Assembly (NCBI RefSeq): GCF_002078015.1
Contig: NZ_LWBP01000167.1
Span: 1-64,000 of the forward strand
DNA length: 64,000 bases
Source of the DNA: Niastella populi
Lineage (GTDB): Bacteria; Bacteroidota; Bacteroidia; Chitinophagales; Chitinophagaceae
Direction of reading: 5' to 3'
The translations under genes were made by a program, and so were the position numbers. Numbering within the stretch: the first letter of the stretch is position 1; each line of letters starts with the position of its first letter. This document shows positions 28,820 to 55,408 of the stretch, piece by piece. The notes under the pieces were generated by a model. The model saw only the letters and a program-made list of their open reading frames with translations. It had not been told where the DNA came from and searched no databases.

Positions 28820-28897
28820 ACCTACGTTTTTAATTACTTCAGGGAATGAACATGCAGCAAAAGAGAATAAAAGGAAAGAAAATAAAGAAGACTTTCA

Positions 28898-28976
28898 CTT
28901 TTCCCTTCGGCAGTACGAACTGCATCAGGTTCAAAGGGTATTATCTCAGTCCGTTTATGGACACCCCTAAAGCGCC
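28898..28976 (-). promoter_or_regulatory. TPP riboswitch (THI element)
   Basis: On the minus strand the region reads TTTAGGGGTGTCC, then GGACTGAGATAATACCC, then TTTGAACCTGATGCAGTT and CCGAAGGGAA, all conserved THI-box blocks: the P2/P3 pyrimidine-sensing CUGAGA, the ACCCUUUGAACCUGAU strand and the final GAAGGGAA. It precedes thiS by about 80 nt. No terminator hairpin follows, so control of translation initiation is more likely than attenuation. Confidence 0.95.
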
Positions 28977-28977
28977 G

Positions 28978-29006
28978 TAAAGGTATACAAAAATTGGAAT
29001 TACAAA
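28978..29006 (-). promoter_or_regulatory. Putative Bacteroidetes promoter for the thi operon
   Basis: On the minus strand TTTG (29003-29006) is followed after 17 bp by TACCTTTA (28978-28985), seven of eight matches to TANNTTTG. A start about 7 bp downstream would fall at the 5' edge of the riboswitch, which supports the call. Only pattern and position support it. Confidence 0.5.
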
Positions 29007-36317: not shown

Positions 36318-36433
36318 ATGGTATAACAATAGAATTTACGGCAAGATACTTACATTCGCTGATTCCCGGTTCGCTGAATTTTCCTGTTATGTTTATAATC
36401 CCGCGCCGGGAACACCGAATAGTATTAGCGCCC

Positions 36434-39752: not shown

Positions 39753-41768
39753 CTACTTTCTCACCCAAACAGTCATATCCGACTTCCCCCTGTTTCCCCA
39801 CGCATAATATGGGATCATTGTAATTTTTACCGGCTTTGCGGTGGCACGCACTTCGCGGTACAATGCATTTGACCAGTCGGCCTTTGGTTGTAACAGACCG
39901 GTACCCTGCAATGTTGCGATCTTGCTTTTGCTGATGGTTGTAACCACCGGTTTCAGATCGTTCTTTACCGGAATAGCAATATCGAATACGTTTGTTCCTT
40001 TTGGTAAGTCGGTCGATTCAAGACAATACACAACAGGGCCGCGTTTAACCGCCAGCTGGTTACGGGTTTCCTCTACCAATGGATTGCTTTCTATCAATGT
40101 TACCGGCATGCTGAGATCGAGCTCCACCACATCACCGGTTTTCCAGGTACGGTTAAGTTCCGCATATTGCGCGGCCTTCGTATTCGCCGTAACCGGTTTG
40201 CCATTCACTTTCACCGTGGCGGTCTTACACCAGCCGGGAATACGCAGGAACAATGAATATGCACTGGGCGCGGTTTTATTTACCGTGAATTTTATATGAC
40301 CATCCCAGGGATAATTGCTTTGCTGTGATAATTGTACGGCGGCGCCATTCAGCTGGGTGTTCAATGTATTTCCGCCATACAGGTGCACCCAAATCCCTTT
40401 ATCGGAAGTAGTGTAAGCATAATCGGCCACTTCGGTCATGGTACGTACCGTATTGGGCGGACAGCAGTTCGACAAACTGATGTACGGGATCCGGCCGCCA
40501 TGCCAACGAAGATTGTACGGAAATGCTGCCGAATGGCTCAGCGGGTTGGTATAGAAGAAATTATTTCCATCGAGGCTGATGCCCGATAAGATGGCGTTGT
40601 ACAATTCCAGTTCCATTATATCGGCATACCTGGCATCGCCCGACAATAACAGCATACGCCAGTTCCATAACAGGTTACCGATGTTGGCGCAGGTTTCGTT
40701 ATGCGCGGTCATATTCGGCAACTGGTAAGCGCGGCCATAGGCCTGATGCGTTTTTTGAATATAGGGCGGGTTGTATGATGTACCGTAGGGCGAAACGCCA
40801 TCGTACAGGGCGCCGCAACCACCGGTAACATACATCTTCCTGTATACCACATCTTCCCAGATAGCATTCAAACAATCCATCAATGAATCTTCACCGGTCT
40901 CAGCATATACGTCGGCAACACCGGCGTATAGATAGTTGGCACGAACCGCATGGCCCATCGCAACTTTTTGCTGACGGAAAGGGATACGGTCCTGGTTATC
41001 ATCAGTGCCATTTTCAACGAGCCCGCGAATATTGATGAAGTTGTTTGCGAGTTGCAGGTACTTCGGGTCTTTCGTGGTGCGATACAATTCCACTACGCCC
41101 ATGTAATGCGAAGGGCAGATAGCATTGCGCGCCAGTTCGGGTGAAGAACGTTTATAAAAACCTTCGAGGTAATCAGCCGCTTTTATCGCAATGTTCAGCA
41201 ATGTTTTTTTACCCGTAACCCGGTAGTGCACACAACCGGCTGTCATCAGGTGGCCGAGGTTATAGGTCTCGAAGTTCAGCCTGTCTTCAAATGCTTTTGT
41301 TTTGCCCGAATTTTTTTCCGCAATGATTACCGGGGTATGAATATAGCCGTCGGCCCGCTGACAGGCCGCAATGGTAGCAATGGCAGTATCCATCATTACA
41401 TCGAGTTTCGGATCTTTGGTATCGGCATATAAACCGGCTACCGCTTCCAGCAGTTTATAAAAATCACCATCATGAAATGGCGGGCCTTTATGCGAACCGG
41501 TATCCTTACCTGCTGCAATTTCAAAATTCTTATAGGCATGGGCCACATTGGGGTCGGTATAAGTGCGCCATAAATGCGGCACCATAGAGTCTTTACATAC
41601 CTGCATACGCTCGCCCCAAAATCCGCTTGTCCAAACTACAGCGTTCAGATCAACCGGTTGTAATTTGGCGTGTTTGCTGTTGCTGGTATTCACCAGGCTG
41701 TTGTTCTGGCTATACACACAATTTCCCGCAACCAACAGCGCAAGGGAAAGATTCATCCATTTACACAT
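39753..41768 (-). CDS. GH127-family glycoside hydrolase (beta-L-arabinofuranosidase-like)
   Basis: 671 aa, signal peptide to about residue 20 (LLVAGNCVYSQNN). The Zn/Cys catalytic site of GH127 is present: AHNETCANIGNLLWNW (Glu-x-Cys) and LSNCCPPNTVRTM (Cys-Cys, the second being the nucleophile equivalent). Members cleave beta-L-arabinofuranosides; one in Bacteroides removes aceric acid from rhamnogalacturonan II. Last gene of the 24-kb catabolic block, 27 bp after GH106, so the two are co-transcribed. Confidence 0.93.
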   Translation of the reverse strand: MCKWMNLSLALLVAGNCVYSQNNSLVNTSNSKHAKLQPVDLNAVVWTSGFWGERMQVCKDSMVPHLWRTYTDPNVAHAYKNFEIAAGKDTGSHKGPPFHDGDFYKLLEAVAGLYADTKDPKLDVMMDTAIATIAACQRADGYIHTPVIIAEKNSGKTKAFEDRLNFETYNLGHLMTAGCVHYRVTGKKTLLNIAIKAADYLEGFYKRSSPELARNAICPSHYMGVVELYRTTKDPKYLQLANNFINIRGLVENGTDDNQDRIPFRQQKVAMGHAVRANYLYAGVADVYAETGEDSLMDCLNAIWEDVVYRKMYVTGGCGALYDGVSPYGTSYNPPYIQKTHQAYGRAYQLPNMTAHNETCANIGNLLWNWRMLLLSGDARYADIMELELYNAILSGISLDGNNFFYTNPLSHSAAFPYNLRWHGGRIPYISLSNCCPPNTVRTMTEVADYAYTTSDKGIWVHLYGGNTLNTQLNGAAVQLSQQSNYPWDGHIKFTVNKTAPSAYSLFLRIPGWCKTATVKVNGKPVTANTKAAQYAELNRTWKTGDVVELDLSMPVTLIESNPLVEETRNQLAVKRGPVVYCLESTDLPKGTNVFDIAIPVKNDLKPVVTTISKSKIATLQGTGLLQPKADWSNALYREVRATAKPVKITMIPYYAWGNRGKSDMTVWVRK

Positions 41769-41795: not shown

Positions 41796-44700
41796 CTAAT
41801 GTTCAATATACAATGTTACCGGACCTAATAAACCGGCTGGTAATAAAGGTTTGTCTTTCGCCCAGAAAGGCGCATTCGTTTGCGTGATGCGTTCTTTCTC
41901 CGGCAATAACAGATCGCCTTTCATCCGGTTGAACCAGGTATTGGTCACTTCAATTTTTATTTCATTTTTACCTGCCCGCAATGCTTTGGTAATATCAACG
42001 CGATAAGGGGCCGTCCATATTACACCGCAGGCCTGGCCATTCACATATACTTCTGCTATATTGGCCACTTTGCCTGCATCTAACCAAACCCTTGCATCCG
42101 TAGCCGGTTGTTGAAATTCAACCGTTGTTGAATATACCGCGGTTCCCGAATAATATTTGATCGCCGGGTTATCAGCTGTTGACCAGTCTTTCAACTGATC
42201 AAAAACAACCGGTTGGGCCGGGCCGCCTTTTTTAGTGTCGAATGTTACTGTCCAGGGTTGTTGAATTACCAGGGAGCTTACTACCTTGTTTTGCTTTTGT
42301 GGCGCCCTGTCATTTGTTTTAGGCAGCACAACGAACACCGATCCATTTTCAGGCAAAGCCAACTGAAATACAGTTCTTCTTTTCGTATACCGGATCTTAT
42401 TTGCCGCGTAACGATCGCTGGTTACAGGGTCCCAAATCTCCGGCAGCGTTCCTGACCCCCGAATTGAGATCTCAATGATCCTATGCTCATTTAACTGGTT
42501 ACTTACAAAATAGATCTCTGCATCTTTTGTCGTTCTATGCGTCCAGGCAATATGACCAACCCGGTTATTCAAAGAATCCACCGCCTCCAGGTCTCTTGCA
42601 ATCCCCAGCGGCTCAAAAGAACTTTCTTTATACGGTCCCTGCACTACGGTTCCCTTCCCTACTTTCCATTTCATCATTTTACCGGCAGGTACTTTTTTCC
42701 AGACAGCACCGGCCACCGCTTTTACCTTTTTATCTGCCGCCACACGCTGTTCTAAACTGTACGACTGTTCAGGTGCATCATTTACGATTATGGTTGCACC
42801 GGCCTTTACCAATGCTGAAATCTTTTTTGCAACCGCCGGCGTCATGCGTTTTGCGGTCGGTGACATGGGATGCGGCTGTGGCAGCACCAGCAATGCGTAA
42901 CTGGCGCCCCCGGGAAATTCAACCCGGCCTTTGCGCACGGTCGCTTTCATCAACACATCGGGGTTAAAACAATCGTAAGCGTATCCATGCAGCGGGTCGA
43001 TCCATTTTTCGGGATCGGCCATATTGGCCGAATGCGTAACCCCTTCAGGCATTGTTCTCATCGGGTTACCGGCATTGGCCAGCCGCTTTTTTTCCGCCTG
43101 CACCACTGAATCGCCAAAAATACCCGGCAGCGTGTTGACTAGGCGGTCTGGCAATATCGAACGGCGGGGAATTTCTTCACCGGTAAACACCGCCACATCC
43201 ACCACCGGTTTTCCCAATTGTAACATAGCCTGGCAACGCTGTGCATATTCAACCCAGGCCTTACCCGGCTTCCACCAGGTTTGGTTACGTTGAAAATACA
43301 ATCCGATCCCATTCAGCGTCATACCCGGCGCCCTTTCAACCCAGGGGTTATGCATGAACACATGGTAGGCGATGCGATTGATGCCTGCGGCATAATTGCG
43401 GTCCTGCAATGCCTTCAGGTTGCCGGGATGCTCATCCCACGACATCCGCAATTCAGTGAATGCCTCGGCGCCGATGATCTGTTTTCCATAAATATGTCCG
43501 CCCGAAATGGCATCGAACATATCATTGGGTTTGTCGTGCGTGGGGCTTTTCACCCAATACTCGCCCATAGGAATATCCGCTACCTCGAAATGCAGCAACC
43601 CATCGCTCGTCATCGTTGGCGCAACACATTCCGCGCTCATGATACAACCTTTCTCAGCAGCGGCCTTTTTGAGGGTTATATAGAAAACATCCTTTACCAG
43701 TTCCATAATTGTCTGTCGTACATCATATAAAAAACGCTCCGACACATCGGCGCTTTGCACGGGCACGCCGGCCATGGCAATGATGTAAGGCAAACAATCG
43801 TAACCACGGCGTTTTTTGAACTCAGCCCTGAATACCGGCGACCAGTTCTGGCTGCCGCATTCCCAGCTATCGAGATGCAGTATGGTCAATACTTCTTTGG
43901 TGATATCGGGGCCGGCCCTGCGTACTGCTTCGCCAAACCAGTTATCGAACTGCATCCGCACCGCTTCGGGATTGAACTTATCGCACTCCAGTCCTTTACC
44001 TCCGCCACCGGTAGCATTGGTCTGCCCGGTTGAAGTATGGCCAACGCGCATGATGGTCCAGTTACCTGCGGGCACATCCCATGTAAGCCGGCCTTCTGGC
44101 GTCATTTTATCTGTGATATCAATGATCTTATTCAAAGGCACACATAACGAATCGGGGATCTCCGCCGCCGTTGTTCTTTTACTTATCCGCCATACGGCGC
44201 CGCTCTTGCCTTCATACTGATGAATGGCCGGTTCATTGGATAATAAAATGCCATCGACCTTCAACACCGGTTTCCATTTGGCAAAATCAAGATCTTCCGA
44301 TCCCGGCTCCACGTTCTCTTTATCATAAACAAACCTGAAATAACGGGCAGTAGTTGGTTTGATGGCATAGGTGAGATTGAAACCAACATCCTGCCAGCCG
44401 GTGCGGGGCGCCTGCATGCGCTCAACCGGTTTAAATTGTTTGCCATCATTACTTACCATTATTTTCAACTGGCGCGATGTAAAGTTGGTACCGCTGGGGC
44501 GAATAACAATGGAACGGCAGGTGAACGGTTTGTCGTATGCATATTGTATATAACAGGCGCTGTCGCATCTGAAGCTCTGACGGTTATGTTTCTCTGTGAG
44601 ATATTGCGGCGATACACCGGTAACGCTGCTGGTAACAACCGGCACCATAGCCGTATCGGCAATATTCTTTTTGATCATGGTAGGAAATGCCAGCACTGCA

Positions 44701-45248
44701 ATATCCCGGTAATAATTCACGTTTGTTTCAGGCTGCGGCAAAATGCCATTGAATTGTTTTTTGCCGGCTACGTACGTTTTGGTGCTCACCACCCGTTGCA
44801 TCGATAGCTCCGGTTTAATCCACGGGCCGCCGGCCAATGCAAAACCATCACTGACGTGCATCCCCAGTTGTAATTTCAACCGTTTGGCTTCCTGCATGGC
44901 AAATAACACCAACTCCCACCAGTGGGGCGATAATTGCTGCGCGGGCGGATCGATCAATGGCACACTGTCGGCCCCTCTGATGAACATCATATAGGCGCCG
45001 GCGATGCCATTTTCTTTCATGGCCTCCAGGTCGGCGGTAATGCCTTCTTTGGTTACAGCTGCCTGGTGCCAGTACCAGATCACCCAGGGTTTGGCCCGTT
45101 CGGGCGGATGACGGAACAACTCATCCAGCGAAGTATCTGAAAACGGCGCATTTTTTTCGAACGCCATCGTTCCCGGAAACTTTTTTGCCTGCGGAAAAAG
45201 GAAGAAAGCGCTCAGGCAACATAGTAATATGATAGTATGTTTTCTCAT
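41796..45248 (-). CDS. GH106-family alpha-L-rhamnosidase
   Basis: 1150 aa from ATG 45246-45248 (MRKHTIILLCCLSAFFLFPQ, signal peptide); an upstream in-frame start translates a repeat array. GH106 marks: PWVIWYWHQAAVTKEGITAD at the first barrel strand, LKLQLGMHVSDGFALAGGPW, HLDSWECGSQNW and MSAECVAPTMTSDGL with candidate acids, and the C-terminal galactose-binding-like VNGQACGVIWTAPYRVDITK. Exo-rhamnosidase, likely periplasmic. It precedes GH127 and follows the BASS gene across a repeat array. Confidence 0.92.
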   Translation of the reverse strand: MRKHTIILLCCLSAFFLFPQAKKFPGTMAFEKNAPFSDTSLDELFRHPPERAKPWVIWYWHQAAVTKEGITADLEAMKENGIAGAYMMFIRGADSVPLIDPPAQQLSPHWWELVLFAMQEAKRLKLQLGMHVSDGFALAGGPWIKPELSMQRVVSTKTYVAGKKQFNGILPQPETNVNYYRDIAVLAFPTMIKKNIADTAMVPVVTSSVTGVSPQYLTEKHNRQSFRCDSACYIQYAYDKPFTCRSIVIRPSGTNFTSRQLKIMVSNDGKQFKPVERMQAPRTGWQDVGFNLTYAIKPTTARYFRFVYDKENVEPGSEDLDFAKWKPVLKVDGILLSNEPAIHQYEGKSGAVWRISKRTTAAEIPDSLCVPLNKIIDITDKMTPEGRLTWDVPAGNWTIMRVGHTSTGQTNATGGGGKGLECDKFNPEAVRMQFDNWFGEAVRRAGPDITKEVLTILHLDSWECGSQNWSPVFRAEFKKRRGYDCLPYIIAMAGVPVQSADVSERFLYDVRQTIMELVKDVFYITLKKAAAEKGCIMSAECVAPTMTSDGLLHFEVADIPMGEYWVKSPTHDKPNDMFDAISGGHIYGKQIIGAEAFTELRMSWDEHPGNLKALQDRNYAAGINRIAYHVFMHNPWVERAPGMTLNGIGLYFQRNQTWWKPGKAWVEYAQRCQAMLQLGKPVVDVAVFTGEEIPRRSILPDRLVNTLPGIFGDSVVQAEKKRLANAGNPMRTMPEGVTHSANMADPEKWIDPLHGYAYDCFNPDVLMKATVRKGRVEFPGGASYALLVLPQPHPMSPTAKRMTPAVAKKISALVKAGATIIVNDAPEQSYSLEQRVAADKKVKAVAGAVWKKVPAGKMMKWKVGKGTVVQGPYKESSFEPLGIARDLEAVDSLNNRVGHIAWTHRTTKDAEIYFVSNQLNEHRIIEISIRGSGTLPEIWDPVTSDRYAANKIRYTKRRTVFQLALPENGSVFVVLPKTNDRAPQKQNKVVSSLVIQQPWTVTFDTKKGGPAQPVVFDQLKDWSTADNPAIKYYSGTAVYSTTVEFQQPATDARVWLDAGKVANIAEVYVNGQACGVIWTAPYRVDITKALRAGKNEIKIEVTNTWFNRMKGDLLLPEKERITQTNAPFWAKDKPLLPAGLLGPVTLYIEH

Positions 45249-45264
45249 TTCGTGATTTGTGAAT

Positions 45265-45480
45265 AAAGCGGCAGACAATCTGCGCGCTACAAGCTTCAAG
45301 CTGCAAGCAAATATAGAATACAGCTTCAAGCCGAAAGCCAAAAGCAAATACAAAATACAGCCTGATCTTTTTTTCAATAATTCCTTTTTCATCCTCCATC
45401 GCTTCCACTTCTATATTCAACATTGGACATTCGATATTCAATATTTGTATTTTCTTCATTCCTTATTTCTGATTTCTCAT
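45265..45480. repeat. Repeat arrays between GH106 and the BASS gene
   Basis: AAGCTTCAAGCTGCAAGC and GCCAAAAGCAAATACAAAATA on the GH106 side, then ACATTGGACATTCGATATTC and TTATTTCTGATTTCTC words that extend into the 3' end of the BASS reading frame up to about 45490. Confidence 0.8.
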
Positions 45481-46759
45481 TTTTAATTTCCACTGGTCTT
45501 TTGCGCCAATAGTTCGCTAAAATGGAGCCGGCAACATTCATCCACGGACTAAAAACCGCGGCCGGTAAACCTAATGTACCGAGTTTACCCAACCCGGCGG
45601 CAATTCCGGAAGCCATACCGGCATTTTGTAACCCCACTTCAAAGGCAACCGTTCGGGCTGAATTCTTATCGAGCCGGAACAGGCGGCCCAGCCAGTAGCC
45701 AAAAAAGAAACCCGCAGCATTATGGATAACAGAACATAGGAAAAGAAGCACACCGGTCTTCAATAAATTTTCACGCCCGGCGGCCGTAGTAACTGTGGTA
45801 AAATAGATTATGCCGAACATGGAGAAAAGGGGCATAACCTGATCGAGTTTCTTAAAATTCCGTGCCAGCAGGTGATACAGAACACCAGCGACGACTGCGC
45901 CCAACAGGAAGCCGAATATTTCGATGGAGTGTAAAAAAGATGTTGAATTGATATTTACAGATAAATAGTTCCACCAACCCAATGGCAGGGCAGCCAGCCA
46001 GAAAATAGAGATAATAAAAAGCAGTGTCACCACCCGGAAGCCTTTCGGCGTAGCGGTTTTTAAATAATCATGAAGCAGCGCGGCGCCGATAGGAACGATA
46101 ACGATCTTGATGATCTCCATCATCATATGCACCACTTTTACTTCAACCAGGGTGCCGGCGAGTAATTTCATCAACAGCGGTGTGAAGAACGGAGCTGCCA
46201 GGGTAGCCATGGCAGTAACCACTACTGATAAAATGAGATTGGCCTTTGCAAGATAGACCATAACGTTCGAGGCGAGACCGCTCGAGGTAGAACCAATAAG
46301 AATGATACCGGCAGCGATCTCGGGTTCAAAATGAAAGATCTTTGTAAGCAGTAAACCCATCAATGGCATTATTGAGAAATGACACATCAGGCCAATGACC
46401 ACGCCTTTACCCGTTTTTTTAACAGCGGTAAAATCTTCCAGCTTCATTTGAATGCCCATGCCGAACATTACCATTTGAATAATGACGAGCATTAGCCATT
46501 TATCCCGCAGATCGACAGGTCCCCAATGGGTGAACGATCCGGGGTACATCATACCCGCCACCACCGCGGCAACGATCCATGCAGTATACCGGTATCCCTT
46601 TAATGCCGGAATAGCGCCTAAACCGATCGCTGCAAACACCGCAGTACCTACAGCCCCCGCTTTGTACAAATCAGGCTCCTGCATAAAAATACCGATCAGC
46701 AGAAGAACAAATGTTATCGCACCAGCCACTAAAAAACCCTGGAAGATCTTTTTAAACAT
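45389..46759 (-). CDS. BASS-family (bile acid:Na+ symporter-like) carrier
   Basis: 456 aa from ATG 46757-46759 (MFKKIFQGFLVAGAITF). About ten membrane segments; GSTSSGLASNVMVYLAKAN and TVAFEVGLQNAGMASGIAAG are the two discontinuous-helix motifs of the BASS fold (ASBT/PanS-like). These import organic acids with Na+, so an acid-sugar substrate of the neighbouring kinase is a reasonable guess. The last 33 residues (EIKNEKSEIRNEENTNIEYR ...) are charged and encoded by an intergenic repeat that has merged into the frame. Confidence 0.88.
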   Translation of the reverse strand: MFKKIFQGFLVAGAITFVLLLIGIFMQEPDLYKAGAVGTAVFAAIGLGAIPALKGYRYTAWIVAAVVAGMMYPGSFTHWGPVDLRDKWLMLVIIQMVMFGMGIQMKLEDFTAVKKTGKGVVIGLMCHFSIMPLMGLLLTKIFHFEPEIAAGIILIGSTSSGLASNVMVYLAKANLILSVVVTAMATLAAPFFTPLLMKLLAGTLVEVKVVHMMMEIIKIVIVPIGAALLHDYLKTATPKGFRVVTLLFIISIFWLAALPLGWWNYLSVNINSTSFLHSIEIFGFLLGAVVAGVLYHLLARNFKKLDQVMPLFSMFGIIYFTTVTTAAGRENLLKTGVLLFLCSVIHNAAGFFFGYWLGRLFRLDKNSARTVAFEVGLQNAGMASGIAAGLGKLGTLGLPAAVFSPWMNVAGSILANYWRKRPVEIKNEKSEIRNEENTNIEYRMSNVEYRSGSDGG

Positions 46760-46772
46760 ATGGTAACAATTT

Positions 46773-46820
46773 AGGTGTACCACGTTTTCCGCTAATGTCG
46801 AAAGCAAACGTGGCACACCT
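46773..46820. repeat. REP-like palindrome, copy 3
   Basis: AGGTGTACCACGTT (46773-46786) and AACGTGGCACACCT (46807-46820) with a 20-nt loop ending CGAAAGCAA; one G-T pair. It lies between the racemase-like gene and the BASS gene. Confidence 0.92.
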
Positions 46821-46835
46821 TCTTTAGCTTTCGAA

Positions 46836-47498
46836 CTATTTTAATATAGAAGCAATATGTTGTATAGCAATACCCGGACTGGCAAGTATGGGCACTTTTT
46901 TATCTTCCGGTGCGAGGCCATCGGCAACGCGGGCCATAGAGGCCTGCGCCAATACGATAACATCCGTTCCGGCACTCAACTCACGCAATGCTTTTGCTAC
47001 CATGGCATCATGTGTTGCGGTATCGCCGCTCATCAATGCGTCAAAAGCGCCTTCGCACAAAACAGTTTTCAGATCGATGGTTTTACCGGCAACGGCTGCG
47101 CGGCGTTTCACCAGGTCGCTGGTTGGTTGCAGGGTGGTTGACAAAGTTGCCACCACGCCAATTCTTTTTCCCGTTTGCACCGCTTTATCGGCCATGGGTT
47201 GATCGACCCGTAAAACAGGTACACCGGTAAGGCCGGCAGCCGCTTCTACCGCTGCGCCAATTGAAGAACAGGTTACCAGAATAAAATCGGCGCCGGCCAC
47301 TTCAGCAGAACCAACATAGTTCACTACCCGGCGTGCATTGGTGGGCGTTAACTCGCCGCAGCTGATCACATTTTTGATGAGGCTGTCGTCAACGATATTG
47401 AACACTTTTACGTTGGGTAAATACTGACTGCATAATTGCTGGAACACAGGTACCAACGTTGCTGACGTGTGAATAAGCCCTAATGTTTTTTGTTGCAT
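46836..47498 (-). CDS. Asp/Glu-racemase-fold protein lacking the second Cys
   Basis: 220 aa from ATG 47496-47498 (MQQKTLGLIHTSATLVPVFQ), 4 bp after the kinase stop; an ATG 7 codons upstream would overlap it. The first catalytic Cys is present (FILVTCSSIG, Cys-77), the second domain position reads VLAQASMAR where racemases have a Cys. One-Cys members include arylmalonate decarboxylase; others are isomerases of unknown substrate. Its place between a DUF1537 kinase and an acid carrier suggests action on an oxo-acid or acid sugar. Confidence 0.85.
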   Translation of the reverse strand: MQQKTLGLIHTSATLVPVFQQLCSQYLPNVKVFNIVDDSLIKNVISCGELTPTNARRVVNYVGSAEVAGADFILVTCSSIGAAVEAAAGLTGVPVLRVDQPMADKAVQTGKRIGVVATLSTTLQPTSDLVKRRAAVAGKTIDLKTVLCEGAFDALMSGDTATHDAMVAKALRELSAGTDVIVLAQASMARVADGLAPEDKKVPILASPGIAIQHIASILK

Positions 47499-47502
47499 GT
47501 TG

Positions 47503-48846
47503 TTATATGTTTTTGCCATTCATCAATACTTCAAAATAATTTTCGCCGCCAACCTGTCCGCCCTTGAAGTTCACCTCCATTCCGTTTACCGGCGAACCGG
47601 GCGCTGTGGCTTTACATAAAGGCGCACCGGGCACCAGCGGCGCGATCATTTCAACCGCTTCAATGCCCATGGCGCGGGCGGCATAACTGCTGGTGTCGCC
47701 ACCGGCAATTACGATGCGTTTAAGCGCAGTTTTGGAAGCCGTATCACAGGCAAGAAGGCCCAATGCCGCGCCTAATTTTTGGGCCGGCAAATTAACAGCC
47801 TGTTGCTGCCCTGCCCCACCGGTATGAACGATCACGCTCTTTCCCTTATTCAACAATTCCACGGCTTTATCGATTCCGGCCTTTACAGATTGACCATCAT
47901 TGTCGCTTACGGCCGGCGCATCGATAAGCACCTGTTCAAATCCTTTCGCTGTGGCATACGTGATCTGACCGGCTGCTATGGGGGAACAGCTTCCTGCAAT
48001 AACCAGTAATGGTTCCGCTTTGCCGGGATGTTTCCATTCAGCTACCGGTTGTAACAAATTTGTTTGGTTCCAGTATTGCCCCAACGCCATTTCAATGCCG
48101 GAGGAACCTATGGAAAACAAAGTTTTATCATTCGCCTGTTCATCTATCAGTTCACCAATGGCCAGCAGTTGTTCCTGGTAAAGCGCATCGAACAGGGCCA
48201 CATCGAATCCCTGCTCCACCACCTGCGCCCATTCATTGCCGAGCATTTCTTTACCGCCCGATACATGAAGGATATCGATCAACCCGGTTTTCTTAGCGGT
48301 TTGTTTCGACAAATGCAAACGCAGATCGCTTTCATTGGCCGGCGTAACCGGGTGTTTGCTCATGGATGGATGCCTGTCTAACCGGTATATTTTTCCATTG
48401 CTGCCGATACCCATACGCGCAAACAAATTTCCAAACAAACAGTAACGGCCCAGCACAGGCGCCGCTACCAACAGGGGCACACATTTGTTGTTAAAAACCG
48501 CCATCCCGGTATCGAGCGCTTTTCCGATGCTTCCGGTTGTTGGGGAAGAATCGAATGTGGAGCAGACTTTATAATGCACATGGCGCGCACCGGTTTGTTT
48601 TAATTTTTCAAATGCCGGCAATAAGGTTTGCTCCATTTCTGCCGGCGCCATGGCCCGGGTTTTACCGGCAACGCCAAATGCATTCAAACCGGGATATTTC
48701 TCCAATTGTTCCGCTGTTGGCGGTTCAATGAACAGGGCGGTCTTCGCCCCGGCCCGGGTCAAAAATTCCAGTGCATCGGTGGAACCGGTGAAGTCGTCGC
48801 CGTAAAATGCTAACAATATTTTGTTGTCGATTGAACTCATTTTCAT
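47503..48846 (-). CDS. DUF1537 acid-sugar kinase (OiaK-like)
   Basis: 447 aa. Four-carbon acid sugar kinase fold: N-terminal YGDDFTGSTDALEFL (residues 15-29), then VIAGSCSPIAAGQ, VIVHTGGAGQQQ, VIAGGDTSSYAARAMG and FKGGQVGGENYF in the nucleotide-binding C-terminal domain. DUF1537 enzymes phosphorylate 3-oxo-tetronates, D-threonate, L-threonate/erythronate, or 3-oxoisoapionate. Adjacency to a RuBisCO-like protein matches the apionate kinase OiaK; the substrate is inferred. It runs directly into the racemase-like gene. Confidence 0.9.
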   Translation of the reverse strand: MKMSSIDNKILLAFYGDDFTGSTDALEFLTRAGAKTALFIEPPTAEQLEKYPGLNAFGVAGKTRAMAPAEMEQTLLPAFEKLKQTGARHVHYKVCSTFDSSPTTGSIGKALDTGMAVFNNKCVPLLVAAPVLGRYCLFGNLFARMGIGSNGKIYRLDRHPSMSKHPVTPANESDLRLHLSKQTAKKTGLIDILHVSGGKEMLGNEWAQVVEQGFDVALFDALYQEQLLAIGELIDEQANDKTLFSIGSSGIEMALGQYWNQTNLLQPVAEWKHPGKAEPLLVIAGSCSPIAAGQITYATAKGFEQVLIDAPAVSDNDGQSVKAGIDKAVELLNKGKSVIVHTGGAGQQQAVNLPAQKLGAALGLLACDTASKTALKRIVIAGGDTSSYAARAMGIEAVEMIAPLVPGAPLCKATAPGSPVNGMEVNFKGGQVGGENYFEVLMNGKNI

Positions 48847-48849
48847 ACT

Positions 48850-48962
48850 ATGAATATGCTGAACGCTGAAGGCTTAACGCTTAACGCAAATACACTTACC
48901 AAGGGTGTTTTGCGTTTTGCATTCTGCGTTTTGCATTCTGCGTTTTGCGTTCTGCGTTGAGC
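48850..48962. repeat. Heptamer hairpin between kinase and RuBisCO-like gene
   Basis: Left GCTGAACGCTGAAGGC and GCTTAACGCAAATACAC, right TTTTGCGTTTTGCATTCTGC repeated to the stop at 48963. The sides are largely complementary (AACGC/GCGTT) with a centre at 48895-48908. Confidence 0.85.
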
Positions 48963-50210
48963 TTATTGTTTCTTCCCAAACTGCTTCACCGATTCAGCAA
49001 ACTCCTTATATTTAGCCGCAGCCTCTTCCACTGAAAGCCCATCCACCGCGGCCTGCCATGCCTGTTGTAATGCTACCACGCCTGCAGCCGCTCCCATGGG
49101 ATGCGCCATAATACCGCCACCTGCCATATACAACAGGTCGGTTGTATGGGTACGACGCCAGGTTTCCGGCGCCTGTCCGCCCCATTGCCCGCTCGATACC
49201 ACTGGCAATAGGCTCTCATGATCATAGAATGGCTGCAAACAAGCCTTTATGGAGGCCACAACCGAATCGTCACTTTCCCAGAATTTGTTTTGGATACCGT
49301 TTACGTGCAGCTGGTCAACGCCGGCCACACGCCATAATTTCTGATATGCTTTGAAATCGATACCCAGCAACGGATGGCGCGTTAACATGCCCCAGCCATT
49401 GCGGTGCGCATGAATAGCCAGTTGCCGCTGATCGCAGATCTTTTTCACCCCGGCCATGCCTACGCTGTTGATGCTTACCATAGCACAGGTACCGCCGCTT
49501 TTTACAATGTATTCATAGCGTTGCAGCATTTCATCCGTTTCACCGCTGATGTTAAACGCATACATCACTTTTTTACCCGTTGCACCGGCATGATCGTTGA
49601 TCACCTTCATGATGGCATCAACCCGGTCATTGAAATTTGAATTGGCCGATGATGACAACAGCTCATCATCTTTCACAAAATCAATTCCGGCACCGGCCAG
49701 TGTTTTCACCATTTCGGCGGTTTGCTGCGGGGTAAGCCCAATGCTTGGTTTTATAATTGTTCCTATCAGCGGCCGGTTCTGCACATTGGTGAGTTGGCGG
49801 CAACCGCTGATGCCAAATGCAGGGCCTTTATACTGTTTGGCGTAAGAAGGCGGCAGCTCGATATCCATCAGTTTCAACCCGGTGAACTGACGGATCTCGT
49901 ACAGGTTCCCCTGCAGCGTTGATGTAAGCACCGGAAGATTGTAACCAAAATTCTCTATGCTCCACGACACCACAATTTCTGCGCGGTGATACTTGCCGCT
50001 GCTGCTTGTTGCACCCGGAATGGCCGGCGTAGAAACAGTTTCCAGCGGCGTCACTTTTTCTACCCTTGCCGCAAAACGTTGTTTCAGCTCTTCCGTTTCA
50101 CCCGGAACCGCAATAAAGGTGCCGCTCGATTGTTCACCGGCTAATACTTCTGCAGCCTTTTCCGGCTCGAAGGGAGTTTCGATATAATATGTTGCTTTTA
50201 TTCTCTCCAT
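48963..50210 (-). CDS. RuBisCO-like protein (form IV; OiaX/OiaT-like)
   Basis: 415 aa. The metal site is intact: GIDFVKDDE with Lys-180 (carbamylated), Asp-182 and Glu-183; the catalytic Lys-154 sits in IIKPSIGLT, 26 residues before, as in RuBisCO. Loop 6 with its Lys (GKLEGE) is absent, and the C-terminal phosphate site reads YMAGGGIMAHPMGAAAGV. So it cannot fix CO2. RuBisCO-like enzymes next to DUF1537 kinases decarboxylate or cleave 3-oxoisoapionate 4-phosphate in D-apionate catabolism; that role is inferred here. Confidence 0.92.
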   Translation of the reverse strand: MERIKATYYIETPFEPEKAAEVLAGEQSSGTFIAVPGETEELKQRFAARVEKVTPLETVSTPAIPGATSSSGKYHRAEIVVSWSIENFGYNLPVLTSTLQGNLYEIRQFTGLKLMDIELPPSYAKQYKGPAFGISGCRQLTNVQNRPLIGTIIKPSIGLTPQQTAEMVKTLAGAGIDFVKDDELLSSSANSNFNDRVDAIMKVINDHAGATGKKVMYAFNISGETDEMLQRYEYIVKSGGTCAMVSINSVGMAGVKKICDQRQLAIHAHRNGWGMLTRHPLLGIDFKAYQKLWRVAGVDQLHVNGIQNKFWESDDSVVASIKACLQPFYDHESLLPVVSSGQWGGQAPETWRRTHTTDLLYMAGGGIMAHPMGAAAGVVALQQAWQAAVDGLSVEEAAAKYKEFAESVKQFGKKQ

Positions 50211-50390
50211 ATTTATTAGTTCATAGTTCTCAGTTCATAGTTCACAGTTCACAGTTCTCAGTTCATAGTTCTCAGTTCATAGTTCATAGTTCACAGTTCA
50301 CAGTTCATAGTTCATAGTTCTGAGCCGAGGACTTACAGCCAGAAGCTGTATTTCATTAGCACATCAGCACATTATTAGCTAATCAGCACA
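50211..50390. repeat. Heptamer array AGTTCAT/AGTTCTC/AGTTCAC
   Basis: Fifteen or so units (TTCATAGTTCTCAGTTCATA) from 50216 to 50325, followed by GCTGTATTTCATTAGCAC and CAGCACATTA words up to the GH78 stop. Variation affects the last two bases of each heptamer. No gene. Confidence 0.9.
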
Positions 50391-52616
50391 TTAGTTTTTA
50401 TATTTTATTTCATACTCTTTACCCGCCTCAACAGTTACTTCATACAAATTATCGCCTTTGCTGTTGATGACAACACCTTTACCGGTTGGTTTGGTTTTAC
50501 TCTTAAACCTGAGCGTACCGGTTCCTTCGCCGCCTTTTATCTTTATTTGTGTAGTGCTGCAATATACACTGATGTCGCCATGCGGTGTAGGCACTTTGCC
50601 TTCCATCCACTGCAAACCGCCAAGCACCGGCTCTGCCGTCCAGGTAGTATACCCCGGCGAAGTGGGTTGTACACCAAGATAATATTTACCTAACAGGTAA
50701 ATGGGACTGGCGCCCCAGGCATGACAAAGGCTTTTACCAAACGGGCGGCCATACATGGCATAATGCTCAGCGCCCTGTTTTGAAGGATTGTATTCTTCCC
50801 AGAATGAAGTGGCGCCGGCCTGTAACATGCCGCCCCAGTAATTCTTCATTTCATTCAATACATATTTTTGCTCGCCCATCGCACATAACGCTTCCAGTTC
50901 ATAAAATCGCATGTACGGCGTGGTGATCTTTTGAATACTGTCGTTTAAAAGCACATGTTTCTTTACGGCCTGCTTCTGCTCATTATTAAAATAATTGAAG
51001 AAGATAGCGAACATGTTGGCGTAACGGGTTACATTATCGGTAGGTTTTCCATCAATGCGGCTGTGCACCAATGCATTTTTGGCGTCGCTCCAGTAAATCG
51101 AAAACAATTTCGCTTTCATATCGGCAGCAAGCTGTTTATACATGGCTGCATTTTTTGTATCGTTCACCATCCCGGCGCAAATGGCCATGGTTTCGAGGCT
51201 GCGGCATAACAGCAGTTGCTCGAAGCTTACTTCTCCTTTTTTGCTCAACCCTGCCGCCCAGTCAATAAAGATCCAGTCGCCGGGCAAACCCTGCATCAAT
51301 CCATCTTTATTTCTCCGGTCAAGGCAATAGTTCATCAGGCTTTGCATGCGCGGATAGAACTGCCGGATGAATGTTTTATCACCGGTATACTGGTACAGGT
51401 CGTAAATGCCGAGGAACCAGTAAAAAGTATAATCCATAATGGTGTTGATGTGGCTGGTAACCGGGTCTTTCCCGCGTAAAGCCATCAGGGTACGCGATAC
51501 CGAAGGCACATCAAAGAACAGGTAATAATTCATCAGGTAGCTTTGGTATGCATCGCCGCTCCAGATCCAGCGGTCGCGTTTGATACCATCGATGAAAAAT
51601 TCGCGGGTGGTCAATTGCATGGTATATGCCGCCACGTCCCATATTTTATTAAGGCTTTCATCTGAACTACGGAATGAACCGCGGCTGGCTACCGGCAGGT
51701 ATTCATACAACATCGAAACAGAATCGAGACTGGCGCCGCCTTCCATTTGAATATTTACAAAGCGGAATGCTTTTGACAACTGCATTACCGAATCTTTTTT
51801 TGAACCGAGGTTCACTTGTACCCTGTCGAGCGTTTCGCAGGTACCGGTGGCCAGCGCTTCTTCTTTCGATTCGCCATAATACAACGACACCTTACCATTA
51901 CCCTGTAAACCGTGCAGGCGGATAAAACCAAATGTTTCCTTACCGAAATCAACCAGCAGCGAACCATTGTTTTTGGTGGCAGCTACCGGTGACTGTGGTT
52001 TTACCGCCAGTTTGAACTGCGAAGGCCGCTGATCTGGTTCATTGAAATTCCAGCTGCCGGCATTTAACCAGGTGGTTGCTGAAATATCGGATGTTTTACC
52101 GGTTTCATCGATCCACTCTTTGTCTTCAAAGGTTACCAGCCACGATGAATCGGTGGCAATGGTTTTTCCCTTTATATAAATAGCCGGCACATTTCCGGTG
52201 CTGAATACTTTTACATTGATCCGGTGTTTACCGGCAGGAATGGTTACCTGTTGCGGTGTTCCTTCGTATCCTTTACCATCGAGCTTCAAAATGTAATTGC
52301 CTTCTACAAATACATCGATCTGCTCGGGCTCGGACAGTTCCACATCCTTGTGAAAATCCATCAGCACATAGTGGCCGTCCAGTTTCCAGAAAGGCGGGAA
52401 GAACGAACCGCGTTCCGTGCGGCGGTTCTGCATTTTGTTGGCCAGCCAGATCTCGAAATCACCGGGATACCAGATCCAGGTTGCCTGTGCGGCTACATAA
52501 GGTGCCCCGCCTTTGTGAGGCTCACCATTAAAAAGAGGTTGCGCCTGTGTTGTACAGGTGATCAATAATAGAGCAAACCAGATCGTTCGTTGGAATATGG
52601 CATTTCTGCAATTCAT
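50391..52616 (-). CDS. GH78-family alpha-L-rhamnosidase
   Basis: 741 aa; signal peptide to about residue 25 (LLLITCTTQAQP). N-terminal beta domains, then an alpha/alpha6 barrel with the GH78 catalytic region GIKRDRWIWSGDAYQSYLMN (Asp general acid pattern) and the general-base Glu in ATSFWEEYNP; a C-terminal beta-sandwich follows. Cleaves terminal alpha-L-rhamnose. Inverting exo-enzyme, probably periplasmic. Between SSS symporter 1 and the RuBisCO-like gene. Confidence 0.9.
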   Translation of the reverse strand: MNCRNAIFQRTIWFALLLITCTTQAQPLFNGEPHKGGAPYVAAQATWIWYPGDFEIWLANKMQNRRTERGSFFPPFWKLDGHYVLMDFHKDVELSEPEQIDVFVEGNYILKLDGKGYEGTPQQVTIPAGKHRINVKVFSTGNVPAIYIKGKTIATDSSWLVTFEDKEWIDETGKTSDISATTWLNAGSWNFNEPDQRPSQFKLAVKPQSPVAATKNNGSLLVDFGKETFGFIRLHGLQGNGKVSLYYGESKEEALATGTCETLDRVQVNLGSKKDSVMQLSKAFRFVNIQMEGGASLDSVSMLYEYLPVASRGSFRSSDESLNKIWDVAAYTMQLTTREFFIDGIKRDRWIWSGDAYQSYLMNYYLFFDVPSVSRTLMALRGKDPVTSHINTIMDYTFYWFLGIYDLYQYTGDKTFIRQFYPRMQSLMNYCLDRRNKDGLMQGLPGDWIFIDWAAGLSKKGEVSFEQLLLCRSLETMAICAGMVNDTKNAAMYKQLAADMKAKLFSIYWSDAKNALVHSRIDGKPTDNVTRYANMFAIFFNYFNNEQKQAVKKHVLLNDSIQKITTPYMRFYELEALCAMGEQKYVLNEMKNYWGGMLQAGATSFWEEYNPSKQGAEHYAMYGRPFGKSLCHAWGASPIYLLGKYYLGVQPTSPGYTTWTAEPVLGGLQWMEGKVPTPHGDISVYCSTTQIKIKGGEGTGTLRFKSKTKPTGKGVVINSKGDNLYEVTVEAGKEYEIKYKN

Positions 52617-52642
52617 CCAGGATAGTTTTATAGATACAAAAA

Positions 52643-54226
52643 TTAGTGTCCGTTAAATATTATATACAAACCCACCATTACCGCAATCAATATTCCCCAC
52701 ATGGCCAATACCTGTTTATCGGGCTTACCGGCGCTTTTAAAATAAGTGGCCTGTTGCAGTTTCAACACACCCTGTTTATCCAATACCGATACGGCGTAAG
52801 TCATGGCGCTCAATACTACAAACAGGTAGAACGACAACAACAGGAAATGCGGCCAGGCGTCACTCGGGATCACCCACAAATACAAAACACCTACAATGAG
52901 GCAAAATGCGGTACCAACCGTTAGTACAATATTGATGGCCAGTGCGGTGGTCTTTTTCCATAATACACCAAACAAAAAGGCCACGGTCATCGGCGGTGCA
53001 AGAAAGCCTAATACCGATTGAAATATATTGAACAGGTTCAGCCGGTCTTTTAACGCATCGATGGCGAGGGCTACCGATACCGATGCCAGCGCGCCAACTA
53101 CCGTAATGATGCGGCCGATCTTTATGATGTCCCTGTTGGTAGCTTCAGGCTTGTATTTCTTTATATAGATATCCATGGTAAACACCGTACTTACCGAGTT
53201 GAGTGAAGCGCCGATCGTACTGATCAAACACGCGATCAATACCACAATGATCAGGCCTTTCATCCCCGGCGGAAATAAATTCGTAACCATTGTGAGGTAA
53301 GCCAGGTCGGGACTTTTTAAATGCGGATACAGAATATAACAGATAACACCGGGGATCATGAACAAAGGCACATCCAGTATCTTCAGCCAGGCGTTAAAAT
53401 TGGCGCCCAGTTGTCCCTGTTTCAGGCTCTTTGCTCCCAATACAGACTGCACCATGGATTGTTCAGTACAAAAGAACCATACGCCCATTACCGGGTACCC
53501 AAGCAGGATAGCCGGCCAGGGAAAATCCTTATCGCCGGCAGGCAAAAATAAATTCCAGTAATGCGACGGTGTTTTTTCATAAATGGCCATAATACCACCG
53601 GCCTTTGAAACACCAATACCTACCAGTACCAACGATACCACTATCAGTAACAACATCTGGAATACGCTGGTGTAGGCAATGGTTTTTAAGCCGCCTGCTA
53701 TTACGAACAATGTAGCCACCACTACCATGATGATCACCGAAAGCCACATTTCGAGGCCCAGCAACTGCCTGATCAATACGCCACCGGCAAACAGGCCAAG
53801 CGATAACCAGGAAATAAGAATGGTGATCAATGTGTACCAGGCCAGAATATTACGGGTATTCTCGCCAAACCGTTTTCCGAGGAATTCAGGTAACGTAGAT
53901 ACATTGGCGCCCAGATAGCGGGGCGCAAAAACAACCGCCAGCATGAGGATGAACACAAAGGCATACCAGGCAAAATTACCCGCCACTATACCGGTTGAAT
54001 AACCGATACTGGCAGAGGCCACCAGCATGGAGGGGCCCACATTGGTGCCCCACATGGTAAAACCGATACTCGCCCAGCCCAGGGAGCGGTTGGCAAGGAA
54101 AAGATTTTCGTCCTTGTTCTTTTTTTGGACGAAACTAACCCAATACCCGATCCCGATAAGGATGAACAGGTAGATCCCTACTATTATAAAGTCAACAAGT
54201 TTTAACTGATTGTAGATGGCATTCAT
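52643..54226 (-). CDS. Sodium/solute symporter (SSS family) 1
   Basis: 527 aa from ATG 54224-54226 (MNAIYNQLKLVDFIIVGIYL). About 14 membrane helices; family marks are FLANRSLGWASIGFTMWGTN, GYPVMGVWFFCTEQSMVQSV and ACLISTIGASLNSVSTVFTM, the SGLT-like Na+ and sugar sites. Imports a sugar or acid released by the adjacent rhamnosidases. Twenty-six bp upstream of the GH78 gene, likely one transcript. Confidence 0.93.
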   Translation of the reverse strand: MNAIYNQLKLVDFIIVGIYLFILIGIGYWVSFVQKKNKDENLFLANRSLGWASIGFTMWGTNVGPSMLVASASIGYSTGIVAGNFAWYAFVFILMLAVVFAPRYLGANVSTLPEFLGKRFGENTRNILAWYTLITILISWLSLGLFAGGVLIRQLLGLEMWLSVIIMVVVATLFVIAGGLKTIAYTSVFQMLLLIVVSLVLVGIGVSKAGGIMAIYEKTPSHYWNLFLPAGDKDFPWPAILLGYPVMGVWFFCTEQSMVQSVLGAKSLKQGQLGANFNAWLKILDVPLFMIPGVICYILYPHLKSPDLAYLTMVTNLFPPGMKGLIIVVLIACLISTIGASLNSVSTVFTMDIYIKKYKPEATNRDIIKIGRIITVVGALASVSVALAIDALKDRLNLFNIFQSVLGFLAPPMTVAFLFGVLWKKTTALAINIVLTVGTAFCLIVGVLYLWVIPSDAWPHFLLLSFYLFVVLSAMTYAVSVLDKQGVLKLQQATYFKSAGKPDKQVLAMWGILIAVMVGLYIIFNGH

Positions 54227-54229
54227 ATC

Positions 54230-54343
54230 GTGAATGGTGAATGGTGAATGGTCAATATTGAACCGTGAATTGGCCAATGATCACTGAATTTTAAACTGGC
54301 CAAATCCAGTAGCGAAACGATAAGGCGCGGCAGCAACCACAAA
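54230..54343. repeat. Octamer words before SSS symporter 1
   Basis: ATGGTGAATGGTGAATGGTC and GAACCGTGAATTGGCC words occupy the gap between SSS symporter 1 and the Gfo/Idh gene stop, with ACAAACTACAAACCATAAAC at its right end. No promoter is obvious. Confidence 0.7.
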
Positions 54344-55408
54344 CTACAAACCATAAACTTTTAATATCTCACTCACCTTCACAGGTGTACCAGTCTCCAA
54401 CGACCGATCCATTGCCTGTAACAATGCAATGGTTCCGATGCCTTCCTTCAGATCGGGATATGCTGTTGTATTGTTGGTGATGCTGTCGGCAAAATATTCG
54501 AGGTAGTTCTGGTATTCACCGGCATGATGGCTCTGGCCTTCAAACCGGAAATAGTATTTAATGGTCTTATCGCCCCAGTGAACTACTTTTTCTTCGCCGG
54601 TCTTATCGGTAATGGCATAACGCAGTTCATGATAATCGGCCTGCGATGCCCCCTCGGTACACCGTAAGATCACGCTCATGCCGCTATCCCTTTGTGCAGG
54701 TTGAATGGGCCCGGTGTAGGCGCCGCTTACCCGTGCAATACGGCCGTCTGCAGCCCTGAAAATAAAGTGCATGGTATCTTCATTTTTCAATCCGGCTGTT
54801 TTGCCGTTGCTGCTGATCATTCCATACCCCATCACTTCTTCAATACCGGGCAGGTACCAGCGGATAAAATCAACCGGGTGGCTTAAGCCGCCATACAGCC
54901 ATTTGAACGAACTTTCCAACGCCCAGGGTTTTTCTAAAAACCAGCGATGATCGGCGTGGTAATGGCTTTCCACCGTAATGAGATCGCCCAGCAAACCGGC
55001 TTCAAAATCTTTCCGCTGCCTTTTGGCAGGCTCAAAGAACCGGGAACTTTGTCCTACAAATACTTTCTTACCGGTTTTCTTCTGCAGATCGAGCAACTCT
55101 TTTGCATCGGCGAGGTTATCTATCAAAGGTTTGGTGCAGATCACATGTTTGTTGGCCTGCAATGCCTGTTTAATATGGTTCGCATGCCATTTATCGGGCG
55201 TGTATATTGCAATGATGTCGATCTCAGCATCGTTCAGCATGTCGTCATACTTCGTTGTATAATTGAAGAACTGAAACTCCCTGCTGCGGTGTTTGCATAG
55301 ATCCTCATTCATGTCGCAAATGGTTTTCAGCTTCACCTTATTGCTGTTCAGGGCTGCCGACATGGTGGAACGGCCTTCGCCTAAACCTAAAATTCCTATC
55401 GTTAACAT
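54344..55408 (-). CDS. Gfo/Idh/MocA-family sugar dehydrogenase
   Basis: 354 aa, no signal peptide, so cytoplasmic. Rossmann motif ILGLGEGRST (residues 6-15), the conserved Lys in ICTKPLIDN, and the active-site region YGGLSHPVDFIRWYLPG with the catalytic His. Oxidises a sugar (or inositol) hydroxyl with NAD(P). D-apiose dehydrogenase of apionate pathways belongs to this family, which makes it a candidate for the oxidation step here; equally it may act on another released sugar. Confidence 0.88.
   Translation of the reverse strand: MLTIGILGLGEGRSTMSAALNSNKVKLKTICDMNEDLCKHRSREFQFFNYTTKYDDMLNDAEIDIIAIYTPDKWHANHIKQALQANKHVICTKPLIDNLADAKELLDLQKKTGKKVFVGQSSRFFEPAKRQRKDFEAGLLGDLITVESHYHADHRWFLEKPWALESSFKWLYGGLSHPVDFIRWYLPGIEEVMGYGMISSNGKTAGLKNEDTMHFIFRAADGRIARVSGAYTGPIQPAQRDSGMSVILRCTEGASQADYHELRYAITDKTGEEKVVHWGDKTIKYYFRFEGQSHHAGEYQNYLEYFADSITNNTTAYPDLKEGIGTIALLQAMDRSLETGTPVKVSEILKVYGL

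Follow-up and report, generated by a model that had tools for sequence, protein, structure and literature searches.

The window analysed here, a stretch of 64,000 nucleotides from Niastella populi (Chitinophagaceae; assembly GCF_002078015.1, contig NZ_LWBP01000167.1, positions 1 to 64,000 of the forward strand), carries a four-gene cassette that includes a RuBisCO-like protein (RLP) and that we propose as a candidate system for aceric acid, a sugar of the pectin rhamnogalacturonan II (RG-II). All four genes have minus-strand reading frames and follow one another directly:

48963..50210, minus strand: RLP, 415 residues, belonging to a Bacteroidota clade (Pfam, NCBIfam, alignment, tree)
47503..48846, minus strand: DUF1537 kinase, OiaK-like, 447 residues (Pfam; 390 bits to the OiaK model NF042436, under its cut-off of 700)
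46836..47498, minus strand: Asp/Glu-racemase-fold protein (RAC), 220 residues from an inner ATG, a proposed ketol isomerase (Pfam, alignment, AlphaFold)
45389..46759, minus strand: BASS-family carrier (PF01758), PanS-like but under the PanS cut-off, a proposed acid-sugar importer

The assignments rest on Pfam matches above the respective cut-offs. The RLP matches RuBisCO_large (226 bits) and RuBisCO_large_N (32 bits), RAC matches Asp_Glu_race (PF01177, 83 bits), and the kinase matches both SBD_N (197 bits) and NBD_C (92 bits), making it a full member of the DUF1537 kinases, as the original prediction from the sequence had it. The same prediction had placed the neighbouring carrier in the BASS family, and the SBF match (107 bits) of this gene, on the same strand beside RAC, agrees. 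The open frames of RAC and the carrier extend to 47519 and 46816, with 47498 and 46759 being in-frame ATGs within them. With these inner starts, the gaps along the series RLP, kinase, RAC and carrier are 116, 4 and 76 bp; the RLP, kinase and RAC genes had been described as abutting, which is true of the kinase and RAC genes and not of the RLP and kinase genes. A scan of 45000-52800 for promoters and terminators gave 18 and 15, where shuffled sequence averaged 12.1 and 10.4, and was uninformative. The gap immediately upstream of the RLP start contains, at 50220-50335, short direct repeats with units of the ctatgaactg type.

The four genes are a real conserved unit, an acid-sugar cassette, in line with the module originally proposed. 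We compared the best 80 of 325 related stretches from a genome scan, all 80 being Bacteroidota by title. All four genes are present at a score of at least 120 bits in 72 of these loci, with the same order and strand in 70 of the 72. At 60% query coverage, the RLP is accompanied by RAC in 76 loci, the kinase in 74, the carrier in 73 and a GH127 gene in 41; GH127 is also the most frequent single neighbour, standing immediately upstream on the same strand in 31/80. The racemase-fold gene and the carrier, which had been singled out as partners foreign to the known route and whose co-occurrence with the RLP had been named as a point to check, are therefore standing partners. Incomplete loci contain the RLP alone (L062, L067, L095) or the RLP and kinase (L063), or are without the carrier (L069, L110) or the kinase (L080, L090); L063, L067, L069 and L110 are short contigs of 3 to 11 kb. 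Across the 80 loci, the conserved four-gene core includes no dehydrogenase and no aldolase.

The active site of the RLP is that of a member of the carbamylated-lysine RuBisCO superfamily. The KDDE motif, already noted as intact, occupies residues 180-183 (K180, D182, E183). The loop-6 lysine, however, had been reported missing, and this proved wrong: the segment HVNGIQNK aligns with loop 6 of the RuBisCO 2cwx, lysine on lysine, and the residue in question, K309, is K in 81/81 Bacteroidota rows. In RuBisCO position numbers, E60, T65, N123, K175, K201, D203, E204, H294, R295, H327, K334 and S379 are kept in 81/81 rows, and K177 is replaced by Ser in every one. The three OiaX-labelled rows carry D, G, Q and K at positions 60, 123, 327 and 334, whereas the Bacteroidota rows have E, N and H at the first three of these (81/81), and the same three residues are retained by 11/11 unlabelled non-Bacteroidota rows.

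Model scores and phylogeny place the RLP near OiaX and apart from it. It scores 530 bits against the OiaX model NF042437, under the cut-off of 700, which is exceeded in none of 296 genomes of the phylum and none of 195 genomes of the family. Its scores against two MtnW-type models are 140 and 186 bits; an MtnW or enolase-type protein, the placement that had been named as fatal to the prediction, is rejected on these scores. Identity to OiaX-labelled and unlabelled relatives is 48-54%. In the tree that accompanies the active-site comparison (12 Bacteroidota rows from 10/80 loci, the window and Rufibacter, with five of seven outgroup rows omitted), these 12 rows form one clade (100/100) that is sister to OiaX (98/95), and the unlabelled rows fall outside; another tree comprised 18 Bacteroidota rows (16/80 loci, the window and Rufibacter). 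RLPs of the cassette kind (488 to 534 bits) occur in 7/296 phylum and 17/195 Chitinophagaceae genomes, the next phylum score being 225; the two sets have three genomes in common, giving 21 RLP genomes in all. A separate RLP type (L009-L031), which scores roughly 214 to 225 bits against the OiaX model, is common in one family of the phylum. It carries T65Q, N123E, R295F, H327I, K334R and S379G in the seven rows aligned, and served as outgroup only.

Two reactions come into consideration for such a protein. The RLP of Agrobacterium radiobacter decarboxylates 3-oxo-isoapionate 4-phosphate, and that of Xanthobacter transcarboxylates and hydrolyses it, according to the accessible text of PMC6302742. 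Because the RLP of the cassette has retained a near-complete RuBisCO site, including E60, N123 and H327, we prefer carboxyl transfer with hydrolysis over decarboxylation, and the residues suggest that it kept an ancestral carboxyl-handling site. The OiaT side of this comparison covers the 11 unlabelled relatives, a set to which the characterised Xanthobacter enzyme does not belong. A plain OiaX-like decarboxylase, which with aceric acid as the starting sugar would give 5-deoxy-pentulose 1-phosphate and CO2 for a subsequent aldolase, is compatible with our overall proposal and seems somewhat unlikely. The tree position next to OiaX, a decarboxylase, speaks for it and tells against our preference; the loss of E60, N123 and H327 in the OiaX-labelled rows as opposed to the Bacteroidota and unlabelled ones, together with a conserved core that has no aldolase, speaks against it.

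The original prediction assigned the module to apionate or another branched acid. For the first of these, the known route would bring with it a relative of the lactonase ApnL and a PGDH_C protein, the latter taken here to correspond to the D-apionate oxidoisomerase ApnO. Neither ApnL relatives nor PGDH_C were found in any of the 21 Bacteroidota RLP genomes (0/21 each), 20 of which are at least 90% complete. Since the 14 standard control genomes gave no PGDH_C match, a control of four plasmids was added for it, and it was present in 4/4; the search for ApnL relatives likewise found them in 4/4 control plasmids. The kinase and the RLP, as given above, also fall short of the OiaK and OiaX cut-offs. 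Apionate was accordingly dropped as the leading interpretation, and catabolism of apionate by the known route is unlikely; the second half of the claim, another branched acid, agrees with the findings, and aceric acid fits it. For comparison, we read 14 regions out of 365 PLSDB records with plasmid RLP matches. Among the 13 of these regions that are non-Bacteroidota, an annotated PGDH_C occurs in four, an ApnL relative in four and both in one, and the ApnL relative of Paraburkholderia exceeds its cut-off of 750 with 770 bits. Because the gene tables of PLSDB have gaps, a neighbour missing there is weak evidence.

Apionate might still be the substrate if unrelated upstream enzymes made 3-oxo-isoapionate and the OiaK- and RLP-like proteins kept their known jobs. 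Among the named NCBIfam families, OiaX and OiaK come closest, and an apiosidase-like gene shares the contig; both would agree with this. Besides the missing ApnL and PGDH_C relatives, the scores below the cut-offs and the core without a dehydrogenase, two further observations lead us to regard it as quite improbable. Compared with the Gfo/Idh proteins encoded at four apiose-type loci, that of the window reaches best local identities of 18 to 25%; among themselves, those four are 62 to 75% identical. Moreover, the cassette of L089 and L115 has as neighbours a split transketolase, a kinase of the FGGY family and an ABC transporter of the ribose type, a set that resembles the non-oxidative apiose route; L121 is in part alike, with one transketolase subunit inside the stretch, and parts recur in L103 and L122. 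The FGGY kinase of L089, though, exceeds a glycerol kinase cut-off.

RAC is a racemase-fold protein with a single catalytic cysteine, as had been predicted. It contains four cysteines overall, of which C77 (TCSSIG) aligns with Cys82 of the aspartate racemase 1jfl; the second catalytic site reads QASM, with no cysteine, and the two catalytic cysteines of the Asp/Glu racemases are thus not both present. C77-S-S-I-G and Q185-A-S-M are invariant in a 61-row alignment (60 of the 76 sequences plus the window; 7 of the 76 are without a start motif, and some of these seven are included), and C148 is kept in at least 90% of the 61 rows and not by all distant relatives. The AlphaFold model has a mean pLDDT of 95.9 and its top PDB matches are racemases, with a TM-score of 0.79 and 20% identity to 3ojc, which places RAC in the racemase fold. 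Arylmalonate decarboxylase, a one-cysteine member of this fold, is among the structure matches.

Outside Bacteroidota, we read nine places out of 172 PLSDB records that match RAC. The first cysteine is kept and the second missing in 9/9 of these relatives, aligned in two sets of seven and two. A DUF1537 kinase lies less than 6 kb from the RAC relative in three places, with the gene orders RAC, kinase and class II aldolase in Deinococcus, kinase, class II aldolase and RAC in Haladaptatus, and RLP, kinase, short-chain dehydrogenase/reductase and RAC in Natronosalvus. In Croceibacterium, RAC adjoins a major facilitator superfamily transporter, with RLP and kinase on the same plasmid; the Cupriavidus relative (31%) is about 14 kb from an RLP, and in Rhizobium (three places) and Caballeronia (one) the stretch read around the RAC relative shows no kinase. 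In tetronate routes, OtnI occupies the slot before a DUF1537 kinase, and because of this matching position we propose RAC as an isomerase, whose single cysteine might act as the one base of a 1,2-proton transfer. This role is the weakest step of the proposed pathway.

The genes around the cassette point to RG-II. They comprise, in the window:

39753..41768, minus strand: GH127, 1144.5 bits against the cut-off of 950 of the aceric acid hydrolase model NF049879 (NCBIfam)
41796..45248, minus strand: GH106 alpha-L-rhamnosidase, best PDB match 5mqm (1179 bits), which we take to be BT0986 of the RG-II system
50391..52616, minus strand: alpha-rhamnosidase-like six-hairpin glycosidase (Pfam)
52643..54277, minus strand: sodium:solute symporter (Pfam)
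54344..55408, minus strand: Gfo/Idh/MocA oxidoreductase (Pfam)
55504..57381, minus strand: GH141, best PDB match 5mqp (BT_1002), 726 bits
57469..58389, minus strand: TIM-barrel sugar isomerase-like protein (AP_endonuc_2, Pfam), with a lipoprotein-type start by reading; a possible alternative isomerase
upstream of the TIM-barrel gene, minus strand: esterase-like protein (weak Pfam matches)
60235-61821, minus strand: probable second symporter (by reading)

The best PDB match of the window GH127 is 5mqo, presumably BT1003, at 876 bits, followed by a beta-L-arabinofuranosidase at 401 bits. BT1003, itself a GH127, is named aceric acid hydrolase in the accessible parts of PMC10850190 and PMC5698469. 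Farther along the same contig, outside the window, lie a BT1020-like gene and, upstream, the apiosidase-like gene.

A hydrolase above the aceric acid cut-off accompanies the RLP in every one of the 21 RLP genomes. It is found in 17/17 Chitinophagaceae genomes with RLP and 17/178 without (34/195 in total; Fisher 2e-15, the genomes being related), and in 7/7 phylum genomes with RLP and 9/289 without (16/296 in total; Fisher 3e-10, again among related genomes). Bacteroides ihuae, one of the 14 control genomes, has the hydrolase above the cut-off and nothing that matches the RLP model. However, GH141 and BT1020-like genes are likewise present in 17/17 Chitinophagaceae RLP genomes, and since the genomes are also related, the co-occurrence indicates use of RG-II and not aceric acid as such. 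Co-occurrence was therefore not taken as proof by itself, and distance was used in addition. In 9/21 genomes (7/17 Chitinophagaceae), no more than 300 bp separate the hydrolase from the RLP, against 0/17 for GH141 and 0/17 for the BT1020-like gene, and two of these nine cases (G080, G286) fall outside Chitinophagaceae. Within 15 kb the counts are 13/21, 12/17 and 0/17, respectively, a small difference for GH141. We consider the relative position of hydrolase and RLP more telling than genome co-occurrence.

Aceric acid is 3-C-carboxy-5-deoxy-L-xylose, a branched aldose of RG-II in which C3 bears the tertiary hydroxy acid function. We consider it, with moderate confidence, the probable substrate of the cassette, a judgement that covers the substrate and not the individual steps. 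We infer the substrate, each reaction, the order of the steps and the products; the gene families, their conservation and neighbourhood, the active-site residues and the absence of two families of the apionate route come from computation. In the proposed scheme, the GH127 hydrolase of the same gene run would release aceric acid from RG-II and the BASS carrier would take it up. RAC would then isomerise the aldose to the 2-ulose CH3-CHOH-C(OH)(COO-)-CO-CH2OH, which is 3-oxo-isoapionate plus one methyl group, and the DUF1537 kinase would phosphorylate the terminal hydroxyl of this ulose. Finally, the RLP would move the carboxylate and hydrolyse the C-C bond in the manner of OiaT, probably yielding 3-phosphoglycerate and L-lactate, with simple decarboxylation to the 5-deoxy-pentulose phosphate mentioned above as the second choice. 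Reasoning from the structure formulae, aceric acid would reach the homologue of 3-oxo-isoapionate with no oxidation, lactonase or carbon migration, and this matches a core made up of a carrier, an isomerase-like protein, a kinase and an RLP.

It may be that RAC is an epimerase or a decarboxylase and that the isomerisation falls to the TIM-barrel protein at 57469-58389 or to a general sugar isomerase. This variant, which also leaves aceric acid as the substrate, is a serious possibility that stops a little short of an even chance. At 15/80 loci a TIM-barrel gene occurs in the vicinity of the RLP, at seven immediately upstream of it, and the arylmalonate decarboxylase match of RAC would suit another activity. 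The RAC gene, however, accompanies the RLP far more often (76/80 against 15/80 loci), and the window TIM-barrel protein, as read from its start, looks exported.

Another acid, such as a fragment of 3-deoxy-D-lyxo-heptulosaric acid (Dha) or of 3-deoxy-D-manno-octulosonic acid (Kdo) or another branched plant acid, could also be the substrate, and we think this improbable. The Chitinophagaceae RLP genomes are general RG-II degraders, which leaves room for it, as do the 39/80 loci with no GH127 found in the examined stretch, some of them short contigs. On the other hand, the RLP chemistry would need a tertiary 2-hydroxy-3-oxo acid, and among RG-II sugars only aceric acid would bring a tertiary hydroxy acid. 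Dha, in turn, seems better served by a second row of acid-catabolism genes nearby, at 61849-63980 of the window and continuing just upstream of it (L155:555-2609, G000:C167). This row consists of an iron-containing alcohol dehydrogenase and a DHDPS-family aldolase, joined by a dehydrogenase of the PdxA type and another DUF1537 kinase, the last two on the strand of the cassette. The best match of this kinase is D-threonate kinase, at 114 bits where the cut-off is 450. The row is a possible Dha route, in which aldol cleavage would give pyruvate and a C4 aldehyde acid, followed by reduction, phosphorylation and oxidative decarboxylation.

Several observations weigh against aceric acid and the scheme built on it. 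The absence of GH127 from the stretch at 39 loci counts here too, and L062, L080, L090 and L095 have no kinase beside the RLP despite the contig running on. One of the 21 RLP genomes is only 83% complete, and 6/13 of the non-Bacteroidota RLP regions have neither PGDH_C nor ApnL nearby, so that a local absence of these genes is not diagnostic alone. Six of the nine RAC places are without a DUF1537 kinase in the stretch read, and the isomerase role is positional only. The window GH127 owes its hydrolase name to a model score, and GH127 enzymes of other specificity exist, as the accessible text of PMC5698469 describes. In 12/21 genomes the hydrolase is beyond 300 bp of the RLP, on another contig in three of these, and in the window itself it is 7.3 kb away; conversely, of the 34 Chitinophagaceae genomes that have the hydrolase, 17 are without the RLP. 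Because of the apiosidase-like gene upstream on the contig, apiose is probably released too. A GH127, RLP and kinase arrangement in Croceibacterium was considered as independent proof and dropped, this GH127 scoring only 87 bits to the aceric acid model.

Further features accompany the cassette at some loci. A run with a Gfo/Idh, a MaoC-like and a solute-binding protein lies upstream of it in L102, L105, L106, L112, L116, L118 and L119, and the same run with two proteins that are CaiB-like by reading is found in L065, L069, L074, L077 and L117; this run perhaps serves another plant acid. A fucose-isomerase-like gene is close to the cassette in L103, L122 and L110. In the window, 36290-38773 resembles DUF5703 proteins by reading (one member was scanned), the cluster of which occurs in 16/80 loci. 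A thiamine pyrophosphate (TPP) riboswitch at 28885-28978 on the minus strand (73 bits) has no relation to the cassette.

The cassette falls within the kinase-plus-RLP modules and does not form a separate category. OiaK acts with OiaX or OiaT in D-apiose catabolism, as reportedly established by Carter et al. in 2018. As in that system, a DUF1537 kinase adjoins the RLP and the presumed substrate is a similar branched 3-oxo acid phosphate; unlike it, the cassette scores below both cut-offs, has an RLP clade of its own with no ApnL or PGDH_C relative in the 21 genomes, and adds the RAC gene and the BASS carrier in an RG-II setting. In the tetronate routes that combine a DUF1537 kinase with OtnI and OtnC, an isomerase acts first, then the kinase, then a decarboxylase or cleavage enzyme. 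The cassette would follow the same sequence, with RAC in the isomerase slot, although RAC has the racemase fold and not that of OtnI, and an RLP takes the place of a class II aldolase at the end. RAC itself shares its fold and the first catalytic cysteine with Asp/Glu racemases and arylmalonate decarboxylase, and differs from the former in having QASM or QVSM where the second cysteine would be. The surroundings are like the RG-II system of Bacteroides thetaiotaomicron in having relatives of BT1002, BT1003 and BT1020 in the same run or contig; the RLP cassette is the difference, checked in Bacteroides ihuae, with B. thetaiotaomicron itself outside the search.

Among the matches listed by literature searches, mostly of titles and abstract openings and with subscription literature largely outside, there was no paper on aceric acid catabolism, which is no proof of absence; RG-II together with RuBisCO-like gave no match. 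The accessible parts of PMC12282258, PMC12168206, PMC10103415 and PMC6353982 contain nothing on aceric acid catabolism. Among the matches listed for oiaX, oiaK, oiaT and (3-)oxo-isoapionate, all were unrelated by title.

Taken as a whole, the proposal describes a complete four-gene route that would need no redox step, from import through isomerisation by a one-cysteine racemase-fold enzyme and phosphorylation to carboxyl transfer with hydrolysis, ending in 3-phosphoglycerate and L-lactate; with the adjoining Dha module counted in, a single locus would deal with the two rare acids of RG-II. In this entirety we hold it to be rather unlikely. Aceric acid is among the rarest sugars of RG-II. Plants in general contain this polysaccharide, and its form is highly conserved, according to PMC12168206. 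If the proposal is true, a third substrate would be added for RLPs to the two activities in the apiose route that PMC6302742 gives. The one-cysteine branch of the racemase fold would gain a function, and Bacteroidota would have an intracellular breakdown route for the rare pectin sugar aceric acid.

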